NCBI GenBank assembly: GCA_963971285.1
Contig: OZ020260.1
Location: 7,846,798-7,910,797 of the forward strand
Origin: Astropecten irregularis
Taxonomy: Eukaryota; Echinodermata; Asteroidea; Paxillosida; Astropectinidae
Length of the DNA stretch: 64,000 nucleotides
Direction of reading: 5' to 3'
Shown here: piece by piece, positions 6,701-58,146 of the stretch
Position numbering within the stretch: position 1 is the first letter of the stretch
How the letters are laid out: every line of letters starts with the position of its first letter
Made by a program: the position numbers and the translations under genes
The notes under the pieces: generated by a model
The model's input: the letters and a program-made list of their open reading frames with translations, nothing else
Told to the model about the DNA's origin: nothing
The model's database searches: none

Positions 6701-8257
6701 ATAAAATGATTTTAACACCAACACAAGGGAGGCTAAAACTACGACAGCCACACAATTGCGTTTTAAAGACTTTATTCCTTCAATAAGCAAAAAACCCATT
6801 GCGACCAGCCTTTAACCATGGTCAAGCCGTGTTTCTACAATGTATATTTATTGTATTTCTGACTCTCGATGCCCTGACTGAGAGGAAATGTACATTTTTT
6901 GGCCTTTTCCAAAACCAAAGTCCATGGAGAGAAGTGCTTTCGGTGGTTGAGGTAACAAGTTGTGTGGGTACGCGTGTGCATTGTTGCTTGGCTGTTGCTA
7001 TGGTGGGCATGGCCTACTGGATCGTTGTATTGCCAGCCAAATGATTGAGTAATTGATTGGTGCTTGCCATGCAGACAGATGGCGGTACAGAGGAGAGTCC
7101 ATACATAGGTAAGGCAGGTTACAAGCGCAACCAGCTAGCTCATCAGCAGTACCTGACCCCAAGGACTAGCCACAGTGTACGAGGGATAGACCAGCGTGGC
7201 CAGGAGTCCAAACTGACCACACTCAGTCCAGAGACCCAGGGGCAGTTGAATGCTGTGCTGGATGACCGATTGACCGATAAGCAGAGGCAGATTGCTGCTG
7301 GTAAGTGCATCTTATGACAATCATCATCCACCAGCATTAGGATCATATTAAAGGTAATATCATACTTTGGTTTTTGTCAAAGAAATGCAGATTCATAGGC
7401 AAACATATCAAGGAAGATAGAGTAACAGCCATCTGTGAAAATTTCAGTCCCATACAGTGCCTACTTTTTGAGAATACAGTGAAAAATGGCCACGGTATTT
7501 CTTACTGGTTTTACTTTTTTCTAGATAAATACATGTACAGCATTTCAGGCAAAACAATTTTAACGGTATGTTTCTACCATCATCATCTTCATACCCTGTA
7601 AGTTATAGGTAAATCTGTGAAGATTTCTGTTTCGGTATGCTACCAAAGTATGATACTACCTTTAAGCAGTGTGTAAGATTGGAACACCGCCCTCTGTTGA
7701 CCAAACATAGGCATCTCATTGCTTTAAATAAACTTTTTGGCAGCAGTTTGAATGGTTATTATTTATAATTATTTGACCTTGCATGAACAAATTCAAATAC
7801 AGAACAGGAACAAATACATTGAAACAAAACCAAAGCACATAAGTAAATGGTCACAAAAATGGTAAATAATTATAATCACCGATTGTGTATGTAAACCAGC
7901 ATTTGAATTTCTTAAACTAAAGACCCTGTTGCTATACATGTATCTCATAATTGAGAGCAAACTACTGTATTGCACAGTGACATACCAAAGTCCTACATTG
8001 GTGCACTGTGGGCGAAATGGAGGCTCATGCTCTGGCTCCAGCTCTAGCTCTGTCATCCATATGCTGAAAATATAGGTTGTGTTTTTCATTGAAGCTGAAG
8101 TTCTCTTTGCATGAATCCATTCTAAAGTAACTGGTAAAAATAAAGAGGCTTTTGGCTGCAGTGCTGAAGTAGAATCTCTGAATTGAAAAGGAAAACAGAG
8201 CATCAGCTTCAACGAAAAACCACAACCTATATTTTCAGCATACGGATGACAGAGCTG

Positions 8258-8301
<44 letters not shown>

Positions 8302-11300
8302 ATCTCTGTTTCGTATTAAAACCCTGTGCTTCACATGTCAATAGTCAGGGGAATTGTAGAAGATTGGAAGTACATGTGGGCAAGGAAATGAAGTCTGTGT
8401 ACAAGACACTTAAGTTTGTATCAATTGAAAAAAACTTCATTGACCAGTATTCTGTGGTTGATGGAGTGTTTCCACACATCACCTCAATTTTAAAAGTTAA
8501 TACATCTTGTAAAATGAAAGGAGTACTGCTAAGTTGTTTCTTATTTCTGTTTCAGCTCAAGAGCAGCTGAGTAAATTGCATGATAAGATTGACGATGCAG
8601 AAGGGGAGCTAGATGCTAAAAAGACAGTATTACAGCAACTGTCAGCTGACAAGAGACCGGTGAGATATACTGACAATGTTTGACTGGAAAGGCAATGTGA
8701 CTCCGCAGTGGAAAGATTGTGTCATTCAGTGCCATGATCCTGTATTGATATTCCATGGCAACATTGAAATCACTTGAATTTTGCTTACTTTTACCCCTTC
8801 AGCTTGTTTTTTTTGGTTTTGTGTTTTACTGACCTCATTATCAATCATCAGTCAAATAGAGTTCATCTAGCTGGGCCATGTGTGCAGGGAGCTCGGCGTA
8901 AACAATACGGGCACACAATGGTTGAAAACTGCTGTAGAATATTTCATATTCCAGGCGTATGTAATCTATGCAAGGCAGCTGTGTTCAGAACTCACATTGA
9001 GCAAACTTTCTTTGGACAATAATGGTGCATTGAACCTCTGATCTTGTTCAATGTATTTTAATAGAAATAACAAAGCCATTGTGAATATTCTCATGCCATG
9101 AGGCGAACTGCTATAGATGCTTCTCGCGCAGAAAGGGGTTAAACAAATTTATTGGCAGTAGCAATCTATCAAGTCTATCTGTGTCATATACCTTTGAAAG
9201 CTTTTTGAAGATTATTTCAGTGGTGATACAATGGGTGATTCTTTGTATCTTGAATTACAATTGATCGTAATGCTTTGTGAAATCGTCGCCTGGTCATACA
9301 TTGTAAGTGTTAGCTATGGCCAAAAAAAACAATCTCGAAGCACAGTGATAAATGACAATTGCCACATTCTCTTAAGCAGAACATCTTCACAGGTTGATGA
9401 TACAAATTTTTAAAGTACTTATTTGTTGGTGTCATTCCTCTCAAGAATTCACCAAAATTATTTGTTGAGCACCCTCATAGGGCGATGCATACGCTTTAGA
9501 TCAGTCACAGTCCTTTACAGTCCACTGTTGTCGATGGCATCAATTTTCTTTAGTTGTCCGAAGCGGAGAAGCATGAACTGAGGAGACGACTCTGGGAGAG
9601 GTTGGAAGCCGTGAAGGACCTGAGACATCGCGTGGCTGAGGTGGAATCTGCGATGGCTGAAACGCTGGACATCATTCAGGAACGAGAAGAGGAAATGGAG
9701 CGATTGAGACGCCAGCTACCCAGTACCAGACATCCTAAGCATGTGAGTCTTATTAGGGCATGTTACACTAGGCAACTTTTACAGGCAACTTGGAGTCAAC
9801 CAAGTATACCACATACAAAAGGAAAGTTTCGGTAGCACAAAAGGAACTTCCCTGGCGGTTTCTCACTGTTGTCCTCTTTAAAATTACATCAAGATAAAAC
9901 GATGAATGTTATTTCTTCTTGGAGATAGCTTGAAACTGGTTGTCTGCAAATTGCCTTGTGTGACATGGGCCTTACACTACATGTACCTACCTATTAGCTC
10001 ATACAAAGCCTTCCAGTCACATGTTCTTAGACATGACTTCTGCAAATTTTCAGGGTTATTTTAAAATCTAAAAACAGTCTAATATGGAGTTCTGTTTGCA
10101 GTTTGATGCATTCCATAATTTATTTCTTTGATCACTGGGCTAAAGTGTCCTACCTTACTTGCTTTAACTCCTTGGGGAGTATACAGCCTGTAGTGCTTTT
10201 CATTCACATGAATGGTGATCAAACACTTAGCCTTTTGTGTAACTGCACTAGGTAATCATTCACTCTTGTGTGGAGTGAAACAAACAAAAAATGAAATGTA
10301 GGTTTGTGGTGACACAATGTTATCTCATGCAGTGTCATGCAGTGTGACGAACAGAGCACACTGTTCGGAACGTCGAGACAATATCAACGGTTCTTCTCAG
10401 AACCACACACTGACAGAAGAAATTACATGGTGTCACCGCAAACCTAACTTTACTTCCACCATGCATAGCTTCAAGTCTTATGAATCAACCAATGACGAAG
10501 TGACTTGCTCACAGAAACAAGCACTGTGACTGGACTCAAACCCACAATTTGTGGATTTTACTCCACAGAGATCTTGAGTTTGGCACACCAAATCACCAGG
10601 CCACAATCCTACACTGAACCAAAACAGGATCATGCTTGCCAAAGTGCAATATGCCACTTAGTGTTCTTTGTTTCAATTGCTGTTCAGGCTGAGGCATCTG
10701 CTGAGATTGCAAACAAGGAGCAAGGGGCTGCATCAGCAGGTGACAAGTACAAGGACTTACAGCAGGAGCTGGAAGAGGTGGTAGCACTCCTTGCTGGGGA
10801 GATGGAGAAGGTGAACAGAGTGAAGCAACAGATGGCCCAAGGTACATGTATGTACATGTAGAGAGCCACATACACTGGAACCTCAATCAACATTCATGAC
10901 TGCAGGTTACCTCTGTGTCCCTACTGACATAAACCAATTTTTTAAATACTTTAAAACTACTTGTTTAAAATTTGTTTTGGTTCATTTCATAGATTGTGGT
11001 TAGTTTGTGTTTGCGTTGAATTTTTGATTTTCATTCATTTAAAGGTACTATCATACTTTGGTAAAGTCTATAGAATATAGCTGCTGTCTGTTCATAATTT
11101 GATTTGTATTGGAGTAAAAACCAAACCTGTGAAATTTTCAGCTCAATTGGTTTTTAGAAACAGTAGAAAACAGTGAAAAACCATTGCCATTGTTACAAGG
11201 AGGTATTTGCATTTGTGAGGTTTTGATCTCAGATCAAAACTGTTTTCGGTATACAGCAGTACACACAGAAAAATGTTAATGGTATGTTTGTACCAAGTCT

Positions 11301-14300
11301 ATCTTTATACCTTGAAGTTATACAGTACGTAAATCTGTGAAGGCACTGAACTTGCTGAACATGTCCGTTTTGGTTTCCTACCAAAGTATGATAGTATACT
11401 TCAAAGTATGATCTTCAATAGTAATTTAATAAGGTTCTGCGAATGCAACACGTATGTAAACACTGAATCTAATTCTCTATTTTATTATCTGTGACATAAG
11501 AGTGGATGTACAACAAAGTGGAGCCGAATCCAGTGGCCTTTCTCAAGGCTTGGCTCCGGCTCAGGCTCAGGCTTTGTGAATCCATTTCAAAATGACAGGT
11601 ATCAAAATAGAGGCTTTTGGCTGCAGTTAGGAAGTAGATTCTCTGGTTTGAAAAGGACAACAGAGCTTCAGCTTCAATGAACAACCACAACGTATATTTT
11701 CAGCATGTGAAAACAGAGACGAAGCCAGAGCCGGAGGCGAGCTTTCCTTTGAGAAAGGCCCCAGAGCCTAAACTCACTTTTCGAAAAGGAGCGAAGGCTC
11801 TGCGTGAGAATGTAAAACGTGGCACGGCAGTTCCTTTAGAGATTCCCTGGCCTACTTGCTTGTGATCAGCAAATGTATCCACTGGCACATGATGGTGAAT
11901 TGACCAATTAGGATTTGGCTCTAGGTCATGAATATTTATGAGGTAAAAATATCATGTCTTATCCTGTCTCCCCATGTCTCACTCTATCTCACCCAGATAA
12001 AGTGGACCTGAATGACAGCCTGAAGGGGGAACTGGAAGAGACGATTGCAGGGCTGACCAAGTACATGCATGAGTCACAGCGCAGGGCAGCAGAGCAAGAC
12101 CGCAAGAACAAAGTCCTGCTCAGGGAGAGGGATGCCCTCCGAGAGAGACTGCATCAAGAAGAGGAGCAGCGGAAGAGACATCGAGAGTTACCTGATGAGA
12201 AGCGACCTAGAGGATCTGATGACTTCTTGCATGACTTTGAAGATTTGGAGGAAATGCAAAGAGTAAGTGGCTTATTATTTTCAATGTTTGTTTTTCCTGA
12301 GGCATCATCTGAAGAGTGCAATACTCTTGTAAGTTCTGGAGATCTAAACAAACTGATAGAGAAGCATACCTGCTGGGATGTCAGGCAACACCAGATGCTG
12401 TAAAAACCCTGGGGTCGATTTCACGAAGCCCTTTGAAATATCGATCGTAACTCAAGTTACGAAGGATAACCCATCGTATCCTTCAACTTCTACTTGGGGC
12501 TTCAATGTACATTATCATAAGTCCTAAGATTGATAGAAAGTTACGTTTAGTAAAATCGACCCCAGAGCTCATTGGAGAATCACTTCATGCTACTGCCACC
12601 AACTATGCAAACAGCACTTTGCATTTGCCTGTCTCTTTGACATACAAAATACAAAAAGGTCTACAATATATGATCGATTGTAACTCGTGATATGAAGGAT
12701 AACCCATCATATCCTTCGACTTCTACATGTACATTGGGCTGCAATGTTTCATGAGTTCTACGATTGAGAGTAAGTTCAGATGAGTTTGGCGATAACGACC
12801 TCTGTTTAAGCATTTTTCGTTAATCGTAACTGAGCAGTGGTTACCCTTAACTTCTCTTGTTCACTTGCTGTCTGGACCAGTCAAGCAGACTTCACTAGCC
12901 AAATGTTTTTAGATTTTGTGATCATTTAATTTCATTTTTCAAAGCACATTGGATTAAAAAAAGAAAAAGTGAAACAAAACAAAGAAGGCATCAATGAAAA
13001 TGTTGCTGTTATACGAGACTCAAAACCATTTATTTTACACTCCTACTATTAATAGTTTGACAATCATAACATCTGACAACAATTTGGTATTAACTAGTAA
13101 ACATCAAGATATATGATGTAGATTCGTGCTGTATAAAATAAGCATCCGTTCATTTGATTTCCAATATTAAACCATGTGTGCAAAGCCTTGGCCGTCATAG
13201 TTGGCTATGTGCCAATGCCATGCCTCTCCCACCTTGATACCCTGTCCCTTCGAAAATGACCTTTGCTCAGTTTGTGAGGAAAGCCTTTATCAGGATTGGA
13301 AACTTAACCCCTTCAGCCTAGGATTATTTTCAGCCCTGCTTATTCCGACCTCATTATCAGCCACCGGCCACAATAGAGGTCAGCTGGCCGGCTTTGTTTG
13401 CAGGGTGCTTGGCATAAACAATGCAGGCATGCATTGGTTGGATAGCACCGCACAAAAGATCACATTCAAGGTGGACTCTTATCCGTTCACGCCCAGATGT
13501 TCCGAACTCAGAGATTGCCATACACTCAACTAATGCAGATCTTTTCAAATGCAAATTATGAAGGTGAATGTACCACAATGAGCAGATCTTTGTGGACAAT
13601 AAAGGTTCCCAGAACCTCTTGTTCCAGACAATGCCCCCATTCAATGTATTTCAATGGAAATAACAAAGCCATCATGAATATTCTCAGGCCATGATGGGGA
13701 CTGCTATGGATGTCCTCTGACCTGAAGGGGTTAAAAAGAAATATGAGTACCCTGATGCTCAATATCATCTCTCTCACTTTTTACAACAATGCAATAGTAT
13801 GGTAGTTTACAACAATTTGTTTGAATACAATTATCATTCATCAAACAATGGTGAACAATACACCAATCCAGTAGGCCACGCCCAGTATAGCAACAGCCAA
13901 GCAACGACGCAGCTTGTCACAATTGCCCACATGTGAGGCGTTGTACAGGTACACCCTCAACCCTCAACTGGTACAATAATAATAATAATAATAATAATAA
14001 AGCCACATATAGCGCATTAAAAATCACTGATCTCTCAATGCGCTGTACACAATTAAAACTAATCCATAAACATTACCTAAAATACCAGACCCAACCACTA
14101 GCTAAAAATACATTAAGGAAATAAGACATTAATAAAAATGTCGGGATACAAGAATAAAATTAAACTACAATAAGAAAATTAAACTAAGCAGACAAAGTCA
14201 AAGTCAACCCAATAATACATACAAAAGGTATAAAATGCAAGACACTGAATAACACAAGTTAAAAACATAAAAAGTCACTGATATAACTGACGTGAATATA

Positions 14301-17300
14301 ACTACACAAGATACCATTTAGATAAAACATGGATACAAGAATATCAAGTCAAAAGTACAATATAATACAGCCATAAAAAGTCACCGATATAAATGACAAT
14401 TAAACTACACAAGATACCATTTAAATTAAACATGGATACAAGAGTATCAAGTCAAAGTGCAATATAATAATACAGCCCACCCGTACAGGCTGAGTCAGTC
14501 TATTTACTAGAACAGCGAAATTAACAGAGACACAATACGAAAATTAAACTAAGCAGACACACAAAACAAAACTAAATTCAACAAAAAGTGTGTAGTAGAG
14601 AATACAAAATTCATAACGTTATGACTGACAAAATGGCGGCTATTTGTCGAACCTTAAATAACTCATTGTAATAGGTCAATTTGTGGATCGGTGTGTACAG
14701 AGTGTGGGGCAGGGTTGTTGATTTTTTTGATTTTTAAAAAAAAATCAAAAAAATCGGATTTATTTGATTTAAATCAGATTTTTTTGATTTAAATCGGATT
14801 TATTTGATTTTTTTAAATTAAAAAATTATGTTCATACTTAACATGTTGTAAACTATATTTAGACTGCTTTTAGACCAATGATAGTAGTCAAGCACACTTT
14901 TGAACATTGTGTATTGTAAAACTTGACAGAATAATCCACTAAAGAAAGGATTTGTTTTGAATTTGTGTAATTTATTTGCGTTATAATGATGGACAGTTTA
15001 TGGAAGCCTGACATGCACTATACTCGGAATTATCTGTCAGTGTCTGTCAGTCAGATAAATATTTGAGGGGTTACTCCATGTCATAACTGGATTACCCAAA
15101 GTACATGTAGCTCTTGGGAATTCCAGTTGGGAATTTCCAACAACTTTCACACAAGGGATCCTCCAACTAACAGCTGAGCTGGGGATTTTCAATTTAAGGA
15201 CTTTTGCAGTATTTGTGTTCTTGCATAACTTACACATCATGTCATGAAAGAAAACCAGACCCCATTTGGTACTTTTTGAGAATGAATTACATTTCTGAAC
15301 AGTTGCATTTACCTAGCAACTTATTCATTTTTAATTCTAACTTATTGCTGGCAAAATCCACTTACTCCCGCGGTATTAAACTACATGTACATGTACATGT
15401 ATGCTTCCAAGTTCATAAGCAACTGAAAGTACGGGTATAACAAAAAACACAAACAAATAAACTTCAGCTTTTTGTAGAAGTATCTGATAGGTGGATATCC
15501 TTGCATTATATGTTCTCCTTCAAAAGAGTTTATAAATTCAGCTAACAGAAAGTAATTTTTTCATTTATTTTGGGAAATGTTGGTTATATATTGGTTTTGC
15601 ATTTTACAGATGAAAATAAAAACAATGCCATTAAATCAGACTTCAAGAGGGTGTAACATTCTTTTAAAGTGCCTCTAAAGCACTTTGTATAAAAATGGAA
15701 ATGATTGAATTGAAAGAAATTGTAAAAAAGAAGAGAAAATAGAGAAAAACTAATATTATTGCTAAAAGTTGATTTAAATCAGTGATTTTTATTAAAAAAA
15801 TCAAGTGATTTAAATCGCGATTTAAATCGGCGATTTAAATCACCGTGATTTAAATCAAACAACCCTGGTGTGGGGACCAGCCAGCCAATGAGAATATCTC
15901 TTACATGTATGTGCTTTGTCAGCAATGTTACCCACTTGTTAGTATTGTATAATCACAAGGCTATGCAAAGATGTAATAGAAAAAAATGTTTCTTTTTTTG
16001 TAACAAGTACATGTACAGGTGTTACAAAAAATGTTTTGTTATTGCTAAATTTGTATTTAAAACAGCGGTTTTTGAAATTCTTACACCATTAAACTTGCAA
16101 AGATACCGAGTGTTTTTTCTACATCTTTAAGAAACGTGAATGTTTAAAACCATAAAGCCCCTATCATGCCTACACATGATTGATGGCTCAATGCTGTGAG
16201 CAATATCAGAACTTTACATGCATCATGATATTGGATAACACGGTTGTAAATATATTAAATTGAATTGTTTTTTTTTTTTTTTTTTACACACATGGCCAAA
16301 GGCCAAATTACGATAAAAAATTAATAGATAATTTAATATAATCATCAAATAACCACAAAGGAACTACTGACTGAAATTTAAGTCATTGAAAAGTGGACAA
16401 TCAAAAAATTACTGGAGCAGGATTCAAACATGGTATTCAGGAGGTTGCTGGGTCGAATCCCGTTCCAGTCATTTTTTCTTTGATCACTTTTCAATGACAG
16501 ATAATCTAATAGATATATATACATGTGATAGATAATGATAGACAATATTTACACAAAATAAGCATAAAATATCAAACTGGGGCAAATTTCATAAAACTGT
16601 TAAGCACAAAAATTTGCTCAGCACAAAAATGTCTCACCCAATAAAACAAACCTTCATTGAAAATTCCATTTGATATTCATGGTCACCGAACAACAGCCAA
16701 AGAACAATCACAAGTGATACACAACATGTGGAAATTTGGTTGTTAACCCTGTTTTTACTAAGACAGAAATGTCATGCTTAGCAAATTGTTGTGCTTAACA
16801 GTTTTATGAAATTGGCCCCTGTTCATTTAAATACAATTTGCACAACATGTACAAAACAGAATAGTAGGAAAAATACATCAAAAGAGTAAATACTGTGTTA
16901 AAACAACTAAACATGTATAATGTCATAATAATGTATCTATCTTAACTTGCCAACTGACCATGTGTAATGTCGCTACAAGCATCACAAGTGATCACATTTT
17001 TGACTAAAAAAATTATTCAAACTGTCTTGTTTCCTATCAAGTACAGTCTGACCCCACATTATGATAGCATTTTCAATGTTTTTCCAAAAGATTCATGTTA
17101 GAAAAACCATCAAATTGCTACCAATACTAAGGCTCACTGCATGACTGCCTTTTAAAATGCGGTTAACAGTAGAACATTGTTAAAACTATTTACATTACAC
17201 TGTTCCATACATGTACACCATTATATCCCACAAGAACATAAAATCAAAACAATTGCCACATATCAGCACACAAAAGGTGAATTTTGGTCACGCTTTGTGA

Positions 17301-20300
17301 TATGGATCAACACTACATGTGTACATTCCTTTTTGTTTTTATAAATATTGCCCAACACAAGGCCCTATGAGGGCCACTCAGGTGAGAACAAAAGGAATTG
17401 AAAGAGAAAATCAGCAATTGTGACAGTATAATCAATGCTTCATTACAATATTGCTCATTATTCCATGAACGTGTTGCTATTTACATTACTTTCTACGGAG
17501 TGGAGAAAAAGCATCTGCAAACGTTACATGTTTTTAAGAAAATGATGTACAGCAGAAAACAGAATATATCTTTGCCCTTGGTTAGAATTCAACTCCAGAT
17601 TGAAGCGTTAAATGTACCTTTTTGGGTAATTCACACGTTAATCATTGGTCGGCGAGTCAGAGGACAGTCACAGCATGAATTAATCAAGCCACATAATGCC
17701 AGTCGAAGTTCTCGATTTCTCCAGTAGTAAATGACGCAATTCAGCCAGGAATTACTGATAAATACTACATGGGTCAGCTGTCCAATAGTATCATCATCAT
17801 ACCTTGTGATTTGTTGGATCAGTTCAGGGGTCCAGCAGAGACACATTGTTCCTACAACAATGAGTATAGTTGTAGAGGACTTGGTGCTGATTGGTTGTGC
17901 AGCCTTCTGTCTGCCGGGATTAGCAATCTGATTCTGAGCAGCGATGCGCCGAGCCTGATCCCTAGCAACCTTGAGAATCCGTATGTAAAGAACTGATACA
18001 GTCACAAGGGCAACTGCTAGCATAAAGATGGTTAAGTATCTCTCCATGCCAGGCCCATTATATTTACACTTTCCTTCATGATTTACGGTTGCTACTCTGA
18101 TGAAGCCAAATAAAATGACCATTGGGATTGTAGTCAGTGTCCACACAGCTGCAGTGATGACCTTTGACCTTGTTGGCGTCATTAAACTTATGTAGCGCAG
18201 AGAGTAGAAAACAGCAACATAGCGATCAATTGCCACAAGAGTAAGAGAAAAAATGCTCATGTAGTATATAATTGGAAGGAGGATTCCATGCAGAGTGCAC
18301 AAAAACTCTCCTAGTGGCCAATAGCCCACAACATCTCGCAGCCAAACTGGAAATGTGACGATAATCCCAATGCAGAGATCTGAAATGGACAGTGAGGCTA
18401 AGAACACCTTGGTTGGCTCTTGGATGCCACTGGCACGTTTGAGAACAGCAAGACTCAGCAAATTCAGAACCACAATAAGAATGATGTTCAACATCTGGAA
18501 CAAAGACCCAACATGCCCAAATACATTTTCTGAAAAATTTTCAGGAGGCTGAAAAATTTTCTCAAACTCGTCAGAGAAATTCATTGTTTTCAGGTATAAA
18601 TCCAAAGCGCGAATCAATATGCAAAAGGACCCTGTGATGGAGATTGCCTGACTTTACCGGTCAAAAGTACCAATCTGTGAGCCCCGGCTGTGCTTTGTCC
18701 TGTGTTGGCTGTTGAAATTAAATGCTGTTCAAACAGTCAAATGATGCATGCTTGAGACTTATACAGAATATGCAGAATACAGAGATAATGTTGCCGTGAC
18801 GTTGATATAACTTTCTCAGAGGAAATGCTCAAACCTAGTAGATGAATCTTAAAGCCATCCAGTGCAGGGTTGGATCTTGATGTTCTGTGCCGATTGCAGC
18901 AGTCTATGTGGTATATATTATACACTTAGAGTCTGGGCAATATTAGGACTCACAGTGACTAACGATTACATGGCAGTTAATTACAGTTCAGGTTTCTGGC
19001 ATGACAGCTTAAATATTCTACATCCCCTTCTCATAACAAAATCATGTCCATTATGGATGACTTGTATACACATGTATGATTATAATTGAGATCATTATTA
19101 AACTGCCAAGAAGAGATTGAACGGCATTGTAGCTCAGGAGAAGCCTTGATTGCTAAGGGGAGGCATATGATATTGCTATTAAATAGCAGCCTTAACAGAC
19201 AGATTCATTAAATCTTCATCAAACTACCTTCAGTCGTGTCAGTTTGAATTGCTGATGGAATTACATGTAGACATCATGCTGATGGTGTTGTATATTGTAG
19301 GGAACCAGCCAGCCAATGAGAATATCTCTTATGCGCTTTGGCAGCAATGTTACCCACTCACAAGGCTATGCAAAGACTTTTGTGATTGCTGATTTCAAAT
19401 AGCTGTTCTTGACATTCTTACCAATAAACTCGCATAGATATTATGTTTGTTTTTTTCATGTACATCTCCAACGTAAATGTATACAATCTTAAAGTCCTTA
19501 CACATGATTGATGACTCAATGCTGTGGCCAATATGATATCAGATTATATGCAAATAATTGAATTGAATTCTTTATTTATTTTTACACCCGTGGTTAAAAG
19601 CCAAATTAGGTAAATATTTACAACAAATAAAAGAAATTACACCAAAAAACATAAAATACCAAACTGTTCATTTAAGTAAAATTTCACATGATTAAAAATG
19701 TAGAAATGTACAACTACTGTACAACACGGTAAAGTAGGATAAAAATACAATAATTATGAGAGTAAATACTACATGTTGAATCAACTTTTTATATCAGCCA
19801 ACTACATGTACATTTGTATAATCCACATGTTCATCTATCTAAAATATTAACTTGCCTACTGGTAATCACATGTACATGTAATGTCTCTGTAAGCAACACA
19901 CAATATCCCATGACTTTGATCACCTATTTTCCTTGGTGATCACTTTTTTGAATAAAATGATTCAAACTGTCTTGTTTCCTATCAAGGATAGTCTGACCCC
20001 ACATAGCATTCTTAATGTGTGTGCAAAAGATTCCTTTAAGAAAAACATCACATTGCTACATTACCAAAGGGCATTTACGAAATGGAGGCTCAGGCTCAGG
20101 CTCAGGCTCAGGCTCCAGCTCTGACATCCATAATGCTGAAAATATAGGTTTTTCATTGAAGCTGGAGCTCTGTTTTCCTTTTCAAACTAGGGACTCTACT
20201 TCAGGACCGTAGCCAAAAGCCTCTATTTTGATACCCTTTACAAATTCAGTTTAGAATGGATTCACGAAATGCATGTAGCCGGAGCCTGAGCCTCCGTTTC

Positions 20301-23300
20301 GTAAACGCCCTAAGGCTCACTGCATGACTGCCTTGTAAAATGCCAGAAACAGTAGTCTGGTACACGTAGTTGTTGTATTAACATGTAACATTACAAAACT
20401 GAGAGATATCCCACAAGAACATTTCCAAAAAAATTCCACATTTCAGCACGCAAAAGATGAATTTTGGTTATTCTTTGTGATATGGATCAGCACTACAGTC
20501 ATGACAGTCATGACGGTATTGATCAAATTTTCATAAATAATTGCTCATCATTGAATGAGCATGTTGCTACATGTATACATGACTTTCACTGTACTTTCCA
20601 AAGAGTGGAGAAAAACCATCTGCAAAAGGTAGATGTTTTAAAGAAAAGGATTGACTTTCAAATTCCCTAGCAAGAAAATATGTAGGTATATAGCATTTTT
20701 AATGTGCGTGCAAAAGATTCATAAAAAAACATCAAATTCCTACCAATACCTTCGCGATGTACATGTACAGCAGAAAACAGAATATATCTTTGCCCTTGGT
20801 TAGAATTCAACTCCAGATTGAAGCTTTAAATGTACCTTTTTGGGTAATTCACACGTTAATCATTGGTCGGCGAGTCAGAGGACAGTCACAGCATGAATTA
20901 ATCAAGCCACGTAATGTCAGTCGAAGTTCTCGATTTCTCCAGTAGTAAATGACGCAATTCAGCCAGGAATTACTGATAAATACTACATGGGTCAGCTGTC
21001 CAATAGTATCATCATCATACCTTGTGATTTGTTGGATCAGTTCAGGGGTCCAGCAGAGACACATTGTTCCTACAACAATGAGTATAGTTGTAGAGGACTT
21101 GGTGCTGATTGGTTGTGCAGCCTTCTGTCTGCCGGGATTAGCAATCTGATTCTGAGCAGCGATGCGCCGAGCCTGATCCCTAGCAACCTTGAGAATCCGT
21201 ATGTAAAGAACTGATACAGTCACAAGGGCAACTGCTAGCATAAAGATGGTTAAGTATCTCTCCATGCCAGGCCCATTATATTTACACTTTCCTTCATGAT
21301 TTACGGTTGCTACTCTGATGAAGCCAAATAAAATGACCATTGGGATTGTAGTCAGTGTCCACACAGCTGCAGTGATGACCTTTGACCTTGTTGGCGTCAT
21401 TAAACTTATGTAGCGCAGAGAGTAGAAAACAGCAACATAGCGATCAATTGCCACAAGAGTGAGAGAAAAAATGCTCATGTAGTATATAATTGGAAGGAGG
21501 ATTCCATGCAGAGTGCACAAAAACTCTCCTAGTGGCCAATAGCCCACAACATCTCGCAGCCAAACTGGAAATGTGACGATAATCCCAATGCAGAGATCTG
21601 AAATGGACAGTGAGGCTAAGAACACCTTGGTTGGCTCTTGGATGCCGCTGGCACGTTTGAGAACAGCAAGACTCAGCAAATTCAGAACCACAATTAGAAG
21701 GATGTTCAGCATCTTGACCGAAGACGCAAATGCAGAACATTTTTCAGGAGGCTGAAAAATGTCAATGTTCATTTCAGGCATGTCAGGCATGTCATACAAT
21801 TTGCTAGACATGCTAGAAAAGTTCATTTTCAGGTATTAATCCGTACCACGAATCAATATGCAAAGGACCATGTGATGAAGATTGCCGAGCACTTTACTGA
21901 TGAAAAGTTCCAAACTGTGAGCTCCTGTGAGCTTTGTCCTGTGTTTGCTGTTGAAGTTACCAGTAATTGCCGTTCAAATGATGCAAGAATTGAGACACAT
22001 ACAGAATACAGATAATATGGCCCGTGGCTTTGAGATAACTTTCTCAGAGGAAATGCTCAAAACCTAATGGATGAATGTCAAAGTCTTCCAGTGAAGAGCT
22101 GAATCATGTTGTTGTGTGCCGATTGCAGTATCCTGTGTGGTATAATCTGGGCAATATTAGGACTCGGAGTGACTAACTGACTAATGATAACATGGAAGGT
22201 AATTTACACTTCAGGTTCATTGGCAAGACAGCTTCAATATTCTACTGTCCTCTTCTCATAACAAAAGCATGTCCATTTATGGTTGACATGTGCATGGTTA
22301 TAATTGAAACTGTCAAGAGATTGAATGGCATACTAGCTCAGGAGTAGACTTGATCACCAACATAAGCAAGGGGAGGCATATGATATTTCTATTAAAAAGC
22401 AGCCTTAACAGACAGATTCATTAAATCTTCATCAAACTACCTTCAGTCATGTCAGTTTGAATTGCTGATGGAGTTACATGTAGACTGGTAGACAACTGGA
22501 TCAAAGCGACCTTTCTGTTGCTCAACCTGTTATTCATTCAAATGAATCAATGAATGTTGTTTAAGGCATCAGCCTCATTGTACCCGGGTTCCTCATCAAA
22601 TTACTGCCAGTTTTAGTTTAAAATGTAAAATTGAAAGTTAAAAACAACAACTTTGACATGACTTGAATTGTTTTTCCATCTTATCCTCTCTGTCTCTTGA
22701 CAGATTTCATTTTGGATTTAAATATATACTTAAACTGCCAAAAGTTTGATTGGAGTGGATGAAATTGACAGGGCAAAGGTTGGAGCCAAATTAACCCTTT
22801 TTCATAATTTCCAATTTCTTACAAGAAATTAGACGCGGCAGAAGAAGCACTTGCTGCTGCTGAGGCAGAGAAGGAGCGATTGAGAACATCCCTGACGGCA
22901 GAGCAAGATGGCCAACTCACTGCCATGGACGAGAAGCTGAGGAGTGCTGAAGAGGAATCCAAGAAGTTAAACACCGTCCTCAAGAGGCAGACAAAACAAG
23001 CACAGGTGAGAAATAGAGCATGGGTTATCTAGTTCCTAGGGCATTTACAAAATGGAGGCTTAGGCTCCGGCCTAGGCTACGGCTCCATTTCTTACATCCA
23101 TTTTTATAAAGTAACATGTATAAAAATAGAGGTTATGGGGTGTGGTTTCGAAGTGCATACTCTGTTTCGAACAAGAAAATGGAACTTCAACCGTAGGGAA
23201 ATTTCACAACCTGTATTTTCAGCTTTTAGATGACAGAGCCTAAATCCAAGCCTAATCCATTGTTTTGTAAAGGGCCCTAGACTTTACTGCATACTTAATA

Positions 23301-26300: not shown

Positions 26301-29300
26301 ATAACAGGCCTGGGAAATGTCACTGACGTAACCTGCATGGTCATTGGGAGATTTAACCTGACCTGGTCAATCTTCCTGGCCACCTTTGACTCGGTTAAAC
26401 TACCCACGCGGCTCGGTTAAGTTACCTGTCAGGTAAGTTACCCAGGCTGTCCGCACTGGACTTGAAATGGGTAAGTTACCCATTGGCTCGGTTAGTTTTC
26501 TCAAAATAAGTCCAATGCGAACAGGGCTTCAGTTTGTTTCTTGGGATATAGCAGTGTGTGCATGATTTCATGGCTTCTGACTGCCTAACGAACCAAGATA
26601 ATTGGCTATTAGAGACATTGCCATAATGACTGGATAGCTCAGTGGGTAGTGTGCCTGTACGCTATTCAGGAGGTCACCAGTTCGAATCCTGAAATTATTC
26701 TTTGTTCACTTTTCAATGACTTAATTTATTTTAGGTAAGAAGTGCATATGATTTGGTATGAGTTATGAAACTGTTAATGCTCTACACAAAAACTTGTTTG
26801 AGTGGATTGTGACTACCCTGTGCTCTGTTATAACAGTGATTGATTGATTGATTTTTATTGAGCAGCATGAGGTAAGGGATGAGGGAAGGCATGGTAGAGG
26901 TGGGCCAGAGGAGGATGCTATGGTAGATGCTATGAGGCAGGAGGTCAGGAGATTACAGGAGAAACTCAGACGGAGACCTGCACAACCTTTCTCTCAAGAT
27001 CAGGTATGGAACGACTGGGCTTGTTGGGTTGGTTTGGTTGCAATTGGGTTACCTTGCCTAGGCTGGTTTGGGCTGGGCATGGCTGGGCTGGACATGACTG
27101 GCTTTGCTGGGTTGGGCTGGGCTAGGTTGGGCTTTACTTTGCTGTGCTGGGCTGTGCTAGGTTGGGCTAGGTTGGGCTGGGCTAGGTTGGGCTTTGCTTT
27201 GCTGGGTCGGGCTGGGCTAGGTTGGGCTTTACTTTGCTGTGCTGGGCTGTGCTAGGTTGGGCTAGGTTGGGCTGGGCTAGGTTGGGCTTTGCTTTGCTGT
27301 GTTGGGCTGTGCTAGGTTGGACTAGGTTGGGCTGGGCTAGGTTGGGCTTTGCTTTGCTGTGTTGGGCTGTGCTAGGTTGGACTAGGTTGGGTTGGGCTAG
27401 GTTGGGCTTTACTTTGCTGTGCTGGGCTGTGCTTGGTTGGGCTAGGTTGGGCTGGGCTAGGTTGGGCTTTGCTTTGCTGTGTTGGGCTGTGCTAGGTTGG
27501 GCTGTGTTGGGCTGGGCTGGGTTGGATTTGCTTGCCATGATCTGACTGGCATGTGCTGGGCTGGTTTGGGCTTGGCTTGGATGTGCTTGGCCATGTTGGC
27601 TGTGCAGGGTTGGGCTTGGCTTGTTTTGTCTGTTCCAGGCTGGGCTGGGCTCTACTGTACCTGGCTACGATTTGTTGGCTGGGCTTGGACGGTTCAGCTG
27701 GATTTGGATTGGTTTGGCATAGGTTTTAGATTTTCAAGAAAAATTTTCACCAATATAAACTTCATTTTATTTTTGGAACTGACTGGACTGCTATATTTTG
27801 GGGTTAAAGTGGCTTTGTCAGGACTAGATGGGACTGTATTCAAGAAGCTTCCTTGGTTCATTTTCTTCAGGTTATGAGCACATTGCGACCTGAACATGAC
27901 CCTCATACTATGGCTGAACTGGAGCATCTCATAGCAGCCCTTGCTGACACGCAACGCCAGATGAGAAACAATGACCAACTGGCTGCAGAAGAGGTAATCA
28001 GCACTGTACTCTTCATCTGTCATCTATGATGGTGGACCAATAAACATGTCTTGACTGTTCACATGATCGGTCGGCAGGAATGCTTCTTGTACATATTCTC
28101 ACTAGGGCCTGATTCCAAATGTTAATAATAATAATAAACTGTTTTTATATATAGCTCATATCATAATTAACGTAATATGATGTCATATGCACGTATTGCT
28201 ATTTTCCTGGTCATTGGGCTACAATTATTAGATTCCTTAAATAGTCTCAACTCCCTGGGAAGTATACAGCCCCGGCTGCTGTAAGGCGCACGAAGGCTAA
28301 TCAAGCACACAAAGTCATATCTACTCTCACAGGTACCCATTTACACTTGGGTGAAGAGAAGCAATATGTAACAAAGCGTCTTGCCCAAGGATGCAAGCAC
28401 CACTAGCTTATGGCTGGATTTGAACCCACAATATGTAGATTGCCCACAAGATCTTGAGTATGACGCACCAGACCACTAGGCCACAGCACCCTAAATGTGT
28501 TCCTCCAACCATGATCCCCATGCAACCTACATGGTTTACCATTCAAATATTATAATGATGTATTGAATGACCGGTGTGTTGAACACTGTGTGTGGATTCC
28601 ACAGTTTTCTATGCAGCATCATAACATTGTATTGTTTTATTTGTCTCCACAGCTGGCCAGAGCTGATGCCGAGATGAGGCATCTTCAGGATGAGTTGGAC
28701 CATCGGGTGCAGCTTGCAAGAGACAGGGAGCAAGATGCCAAGAGGCAGATGGAGCAGCAGAGGAGAGAAGCCAGCAGGATGACCCAGGAGGCCATTGCTG
28801 AGGTATCTGTCAATTTTACCCCATCCTTTAATCTGGGGTTTAAAGTTCCCGAGGAGGACACCAGTCTCTCTAGTTGACAGAGTTAGCAGACTATGATCAT
28901 AACCATGTCTCCTCTGTCTGGATTGCACCAGGTTGAGTCCCGTGCCAGGGAGAGAGCTCGGCAAGCTGCCCAGGAACTGGCCAGAGCTGAGGATGACCTT
29001 GCTGGACTACACCAAGACCTGGCTGATAGAGAGAGAAGACTCCGGGAGGAGATGCAGCGCGGTGACCTAGCATCACAGACTGTTGGTGAGGACAAGATGC
29101 AGATTCAGATGATGATGTCTATTTAAGTACACTCAAACCTTAAGCAGAACAGCTGCAAGATGAAATTATTGTAATAGGCAAAATCTGAATTCCCCAAAAG
29201 TCTTTTTTCAGTTTTCTACAGTGCTAGGAGGTAGGAAGGCCCTCCTCCCAAGTTATAAATTTCAGGTCATTATTTTGGCTGGTGAGCAGTTTGCAGCAGT

Positions 29301-57925: not shown

Positions 57926-58146
57926 AGGGCCTTTCCCAAACGTTCGCTCCGGCTCAGGCTCCGGCTTCGTCTCTGTCATCTGCTGAAAATATAGATTGTG
58001 GTTTTTCATAGCTGACGCTCTGTTTTCCTTTTCAAACCAGAGAATGCACTTCCGAACCGTAGCCTGAAAAGCCTCTATTTTGATACTTGTTATTTTAGAT
58101 GAGATTCACACAATGGAGCCGGAGCTGAGGTTTGGAAATGGCGCCT
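57926..58146. mobile_element. GAGCC-type inverted-repeat element
   Basis: agggcctttcccaaacgttc to tttggaaatggcgcct, with family interior gctgaaaatatagattg. Confidence 0.7.

Follow-up and report, generated by a model that had tools for sequence, protein, structure and literature searches.

Two closely similar genes for G-protein-coupled receptors (GPCRs), here called A and B, lie in a 64,000-nucleotide stretch of the genome of the sea star Astropecten irregularis (GenBank assembly GCA_963971285.1, contig OZ020260.1, positions 7,846,798 to 7,910,797), which we refer to as the window. Both are antisense to a host gene on the plus strand and sit inside one of its introns, which measures 10,563 bp between an exon ending at 12262 and the next starting at 22826 and is in phase 0 at both donor and acceptor; a small undetected exon may lie within it. 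The reading frames of A and B are intact and uninterrupted, with the coding sequence of each in a single exon, and both match the rhodopsin-class Pfam profile 7tm_1 along positions 2-260 of 260 with scores of 131.3 and 131.2 bits (cut-off 30.5), so that the arrangement claimed in an earlier note on this DNA, of two near-identical GPCRs antisense in an intron, is borne out. The profile of vertebrate-type olfactory receptors, 7tm_4, stays below its cut-off of 27 bits, at 20.1 and 19.6. Of the class motifs, DRY (position 120 in A, 128 in B) and CWTP (250 and 258) are exact, and the NPxxY position (282 and 290) reads NCVIY, Cys replacing Pro. The host gene includes a stretch of leucine-rich repeats (LRR) and exons that appear by eye to encode coiled coil; its product may be centriolin, as the earlier note had it, and of that proposal the LRR/coiled-coil gene and its intron stand.

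The duplication that holds the pair is wider than the earlier note saw, comprising two whole tandem units of about 3.3 kb each (Table 1). Unit B additionally carries a 244-bp element at 20068-20311 with 35-bp inverted ends (91%), which is missing at the matching place in unit A. Related pieces occur at 8013-8287, 11552-11736, 23038-23101 and 57946-58086, and the element resembles a miniature inverted-repeat transposable element.

Table 1. Features of the A/B locus, in window coordinates (TM, transmembrane helix; sequon, N-x-S/T glycosylation site).
Feature	Position	Strand	Remarks
Host intron, phase 0	12263-22825	+	In an LRR/coiled-coil gene, putatively centriolin
Tandem unit A, whole duplicated segment with diverged flanks	15872-19272		15872-15936 matches 19300-19358 at 86%; 16055-16206 matches 19392-19534 at 71.5%; further colinear matches
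Tandem unit B	19300-22485		Same colinear matches to unit A
GPCR gene A	17631-18584	-	Single exon, 317 aa from first ATG; 7tm_1, PF00001, E 5.8e-38
GPCR gene B	20849-21826	-	Single exon, 325 aa; 7tm_1, PF00001, E 6.1e-38
Putative conversion tract in A	17547-18460	-	Starts in TM1 at codon 42 and ends 84 bp beyond the stop; 5 of 914 sites differ
Putative conversion tract in B	20765-21678	-	Aligned to 17547-18460 of A
N-terminal coding region of A	18495-18584	-	Not in the tract; 30 codons, with sequons at residues 2 and 16
N-terminal coding region of B	21713-21826	-	Not in the tract; 38 codons, with a sequon at residue 2
Low-divergence block upstream of A	19157-19272	-	4 differences in 116 sites
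Low-divergence block upstream of B	22370-22485	-	Counterpart of 19157-19272

Divergence between the units is concentrated outside one tract, which runs from within TM1 into the 3' untranslated region (3'-UTR). The five differences in this tract fall four among 830 coding sites and one among 84 of the 3'-UTR; two of the coding differences are silent and two change an amino acid, and a third amino-acid change falls in TM1 just ahead of the tract. From TM1 to the C-terminus the proteins consequently differ at I35/L, A296/T and C298/R (A numbering), the three residues that the earlier note had counted, and the tract edges at 17547 and 20765 agree within a few bases with its start of high identity at 17541/20767. 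Its observation that the flanks are more diverged than the cores also holds, with 97 of 519 sites differing on the 5' side, where there are 15 gap events as well, and 32 of 117 on the 3' side. Fourfold-degenerate sites of the core differ at 1 of 137, far fewer than the 5' flank (Fisher p=6e-10). The longest stretch with at most five differences extends over 933 sites, against a maximum of 262 in 10,000 shuffles of the 1775 aligned sites and their 160 differences, and uniform divergence across core and flanks is thus not what the units display.

From the duplication, the sharp tract, the homogenised fourfold and 3'-UTR sites and the diverged flanks, we infer, in agreement with the earlier note, that the identity of the two cores is probably due to interlocus gene conversion after an older tandem duplication, with the N-terminus and the flanks lying outside the tract. 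Under this reading, duplication of a segment of about 3.3 kb would have put two odorant receptor (OR)-like rhodopsin-class GPCR copies antisense into the large intron, and much later a single conversion, or several overlapping ones, would have overwritten about 0.9 kb of one unit with the sequence of the other, beginning within TM1 and continuing past the C-terminus into the 3'-UTR. Both flanks, and the codons of the N-terminus, would have been left outside the copied stretch, retaining their older divergence.

The N-termini themselves were described in the earlier note as sharing just MNFS and IFQPPE. Both motifs are indeed shared, but so are three further scattered residues in 25 aligned columns, and outside the motifs 12 of 15 aligned columns differ. 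As aligned, their length difference consists of a 13-codon stretch found only in B and a 5-codon stretch found only in A. Counted over A 18494-18584, there are 19 substitutions in 76 sites and two gap events, and the proportions of differing nonsynonymous (pN) and synonymous (pS) sites are 0.23 and 0.25 over 30 aligned codons, including the first five of TM1. Since substitution is not significantly faster here than in the 5' flank (Fisher p=0.21), the divergence of the N-termini is explained by their position outside the tract.

To place the pair among its relatives, we turn to the whole 475.7-Mb assembly of 168 contigs. A protein search, in which 123 of 783 candidates were scored, gave only A and B as close copies; the next match is 51% identical, and A and B are mutual closest relatives with a support of 100 in the Shimodaira–Hasegawa-like approximate likelihood ratio test (SH-aLRT). 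Many of the 123 scored matches are arrayed in tandem on C20, C17, C12, C16, C22 and C23. The family set comprised 50 open reading frames (ORFs) matching B, reduced to 48 by removal of one partial and one cut ORF. An N-x-S/T sequon lies within the first 20 residues in 45 of the 46 genes whose N-terminus, counted from the first ATG, has 10 or more residues, compared with a mean of 14.1 and a maximum of 27 genes after shuffling, and N-terminal sequons total 116 against 29.9 in shuffled sequences; these genes are related paralogues and so not independent trials. Genes with an N-terminal sequon are found in each of the 11 genome groups defined by 100-kb bins.

Rates were compared over 30 of the 36 adjacent gene pairs, A/B and pairs with pS outside 0.005-0.35 being excluded, with region bounds set by eye and with genes shared between neighbouring pairs. 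Pooled pN/pS is highest in extracellular loops (ECL) 3 and 2, at 1.15 (bootstrap 0.89-1.53) and 1.00 (0.78-1.27), and is 0.62 (0.51-0.76) in the N-terminus and 0.20 and 0.18 in intracellular loops (ICL) 2 and 3. No region is clearly above 1, and we make no claim of positive selection. The N-terminus differs at 44 of 388 fourfold sites, which is not unusual; in 16 pairs the level is above that of the core, in 11 below it and in one the same, two pairs having no such sites. Length is another matter, since gapped codon columns make up 201 of 1158 in the N-terminus against 88 of 8546 in the core, although taking the first ATG as the start contributes to the N-terminal figure. The proposal of a freely changing, possibly ligand-contacting N-terminus is therefore not supported, given the substitution rate in A and B, the greater variation of ECL3 and ECL2 and the sequon kept in nearly every gene, although the N-terminus is free in length. 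Family comparison places the strongest variation in ECL2 and ECL3, with the N-terminus varying in length around a kept glycosylation site. A and B would probably bind the same ligand, or share one ligand profile, because these most variable loops are identical in the two. The N-terminus, for its part, may serve in trafficking as a short N-glycosylated tail that tolerates changes in length and whose sequon is the main reason for its retention. Selection shaping conversion across the family was considered by correlating, in 15 regions, the amount of fourfold with that of amino-acid change (Spearman 0.40, p=0.14; -0.04 to 0.55 when pairs are bootstrapped) and is not claimed.

Some arrays of the family have features of their own. 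At C20:14395974-14442700 (L016, L018, L019 and L020), GPCR N-termini consist of repeated MNAT/LNAT units; each gene has 2-11 sequons, spaced for the most part in a 4-residue register, forming a coding minisatellite of glycosylation sites. Three array genes at C17:14764259, 14768769 and 14773259 (L026-L028) have identical proteins, the first two also identical coding DNA, which suggests that they were duplicated recently, about 4.5 kb at a time.

Conversion-like tracts were surveyed in the same 36 adjacent pairs, of which three at locus edges and one with too few differences were set aside, leaving 32, A/B being one of them. In all 32 the longest run containing no more than three differences beats uniform shuffles (p<=0.004), a result that is weak taken alone because constraint differs between coding and flanking sequence. 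The tracts lie upstream only in 5 pairs, across the first ATG in 4, over the whole gene in 1, within the core in 9, across the stop codon in 7 (A/B among them) and downstream only in 6; in one of the four cases spanning the first ATG, C12:17714351, that ATG sits within the TM region. At C20:3707673/3709240 the pattern of A/B is reversed, with 99% identity over the upstream 500 bp, 100% over the N-terminus and 84-89% over core segments at the nucleotide level. As this tract covers the upstream region and the N-terminus and spares most of the core, the pattern of A/B is no family rule, and a homogenised core with separate N-termini is one outcome among several.

Other explanations of the likeness of A and B have to account for the same sites. 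Purifying selection could in principle hold the cores alike without conversion while the rest drifts, and receptor cores are constrained, with ICL2 and ICL3 slow throughout the family; but protein constraint alone is insufficient because the fourfold and 3'-UTR sites are homogenised too, and other paralogue pairs gather fourfold differences in the same regions, which leaves this explanation very improbable indeed. A simple recent duplication is disfavoured by the diverged homologous flanks on both sides. It is also improbable that the likeness was made by the assembly, through read correction, polishing or a false haplotype join: a core divergence of 0.5% would fall within the allelic range, but the flanks are 19-27% different with many indels, the element of about 0.25 kb is present in B only, the window holds no N bases and the protein search of the assembly returned just these two close copies. 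The 116-bp block with which each unit ends on its upstream side is far less diverged than the remaining 5' flank (p=9e-6) and may be a second conversion tract or a regulatory element. That it is a constrained shared promoter element or noncoding exon, and not a second tract, is a little short of an even prospect; besides the low divergence, it has weak same-strand matches about 1.0-1.3 kb upstream of the genes of another array (best E 0.0069), but these are confined to one array of related genes, and a shared-word search gave no evident element common to arrays beyond neighbouring coding sequence. Over the upstream regions searched, 1.6 kb long for most genes, the output consisted mainly of apparent TM7 codons of the neighbouring gene. 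One word, TTAATGAAT, occurs upstream of 14 of 47 genes in the sense direction and of none in the antisense direction; it was picked post hoc and is not claimed as a shared upstream element because its matches fall in three arrays with unlike contexts and distances.

It might further be supposed that, alongside a core made uniform by conversion, the two N-termini contact different ligands and owe their differences to selection, which either drives or protects them. The differing lengths and residues of the two N-termini agree with this, as does the end of the tract just inside TM1, and conversions between CCR2 and CCR5 are described as mainly transmembrane in a source that also gives the amino-terminus and extracellular domains a part in ligand binding (PMC2880985). 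We nevertheless consider it unlikely, as the N-termini have no significant excess of substitution over the 5' flank, pN is about equal to pS as expected without selection, the pN/pS of the family N-terminus is under that of ECL2 and ECL3, N-terminal amino-acid change exceeds that of the core in 16 of 30 pairs and falls below it in 11, and at C20:3707673/3709240 the N-terminus is the homogenised part. A variant, that selection removed conversions replacing the N-terminus, so that one pocket came to carry different tails for surface delivery, dimer choice or cell type and not for ligand choice, would also place the tract end inside TM1, and we regard it as a long shot.

Several points weigh against the account preferred here, of conversion with the N-terminus simply left outside. 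The shuffles of the A/B alignment redistribute the same differences and assume uniform divergence; the aligned N-terminal codons are few (25 or 30 by alignment) and their gaps uncertain; and pooled pN/pS is high in TM4 and TM1 as well (0.94 and 0.88, with wide intervals). The conversion may have gone in either direction and in one event or several, as the next match is only 51% identical, and an attempt to polarise the differences met nearest paralogues that disagree or carry other residues at the changed core positions. As there is one assembly, the core may have been homogenised by read correction or polishing. A trafficking role of the N-terminus is not assured either, because added N-terminal sequons are reported to have given no rescue of surface delivery of the mouse OR M71 (PMC4626375, in part). 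The pair serves as a caution that an unconverted gene end should not be read as a selected end and, if expressed, would be a natural test of the effect of the N-terminal tail on an otherwise near-identical receptor.

Elsewhere in the window, a histone 3' stem-loop (RF00032, 36.1 bits against a cut-off of 34) lies at 10384-10429 in the host gene region; no histone frame was recognised by eye among 11 ORFs of at least 40 aa in 9300-10440. A G-rich minisatellite at 27069-27533 has a 15-bp unit near TGGGCTGGGCTTGGC, a higher period of 60 bp and strong GC skew. In the wider genome, COX1 on the mitochondrial contig C168 has 10 TGA, 10 ATA, 6 AGA and 4 AAA codons in the part analysed, which by eye are best translated as Trp, Ile, Ser and Asn, in keeping with the echinoderm mitochondrial code; frames resembling ND1 and ND2, assigned by eye, run opposite to COX1, an order typical of starfish. 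A COX1-family gene at C131:32162-33484 (L009) is open without TGA codons and perhaps belongs to a bacterial contaminant or symbiont, and a COX1 piece with 7 TGA at C25:9951047-9952018 is perhaps a nuclear copy of mitochondrial DNA.

Among known systems, the nearest by description are the OR-like rhodopsin GPCRs of echinoderms (the ApORs of Acanthaster planci, sea urchin surreal-GPCRs and the OR-l clades of sea cucumbers), for which tandem arrangement and expression in sensory tissue are reported (PMC5442662, PMC7042368, both in part), and which A and B resemble in rhodopsin class, tandem arrays, lineage expansions and a single exon, the sea cucumber receptors being mostly single-exon (PMC7042368). 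Of the OR signature LxxPxYxxxxxLxxxDxxxxxxxxP, as worded in the latter source, B keeps three of six residues at 62-87 (P65, L73 and D77), with I62 for L, K67 for Y and the final P one residue late at 87; the sea cucumber clade OR-l1 is said there to keep L, L and D, two of which are kept in B. The terms 'gene conversion' and 'N-termin' are absent from the main text of PMC5442662. Unlike these arrays, A and B stand alone as an array of two genes inside an intron, and a literature search on nested chemoreceptor genes gave no match; among the papers listed by another search, none combined surreal-GPCRs with gene conversion.

Vertebrate odorant receptors form intronless arrays and undergo gene conversion. 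They are described as having a short N-terminus with a conserved N-x-S/T sequon (PMC4626375), as in A and B, which differ from them in holding the OR motifs only in part and in falling below the 7tm_4 cut-off. The candidate chemoreceptors of Aplysia (AcCR), again compared by description, are rhodopsin-like and largely intronless, with a short N-terminus and predicted N-glycosylation sites near the start, like A and B (PMC2700072, in part); the term 'gene conversion' is absent from the main text of that paper. Mammalian CCR2 and CCR5 resemble A and B as neighbouring GPCR genes with conversion mainly over the transmembrane regions, but there protein ligands reportedly bind to the amino-terminus and extracellular domains (PMC2880985), whereas A and B have no sign of a protein ligand or of N-terminal selection. 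Set beside these systems, A/B is probably an ordinary, cleanly bounded partial gene conversion in a tandem chemoreceptor-like pair, a well-delimited example of a process already known in such families.

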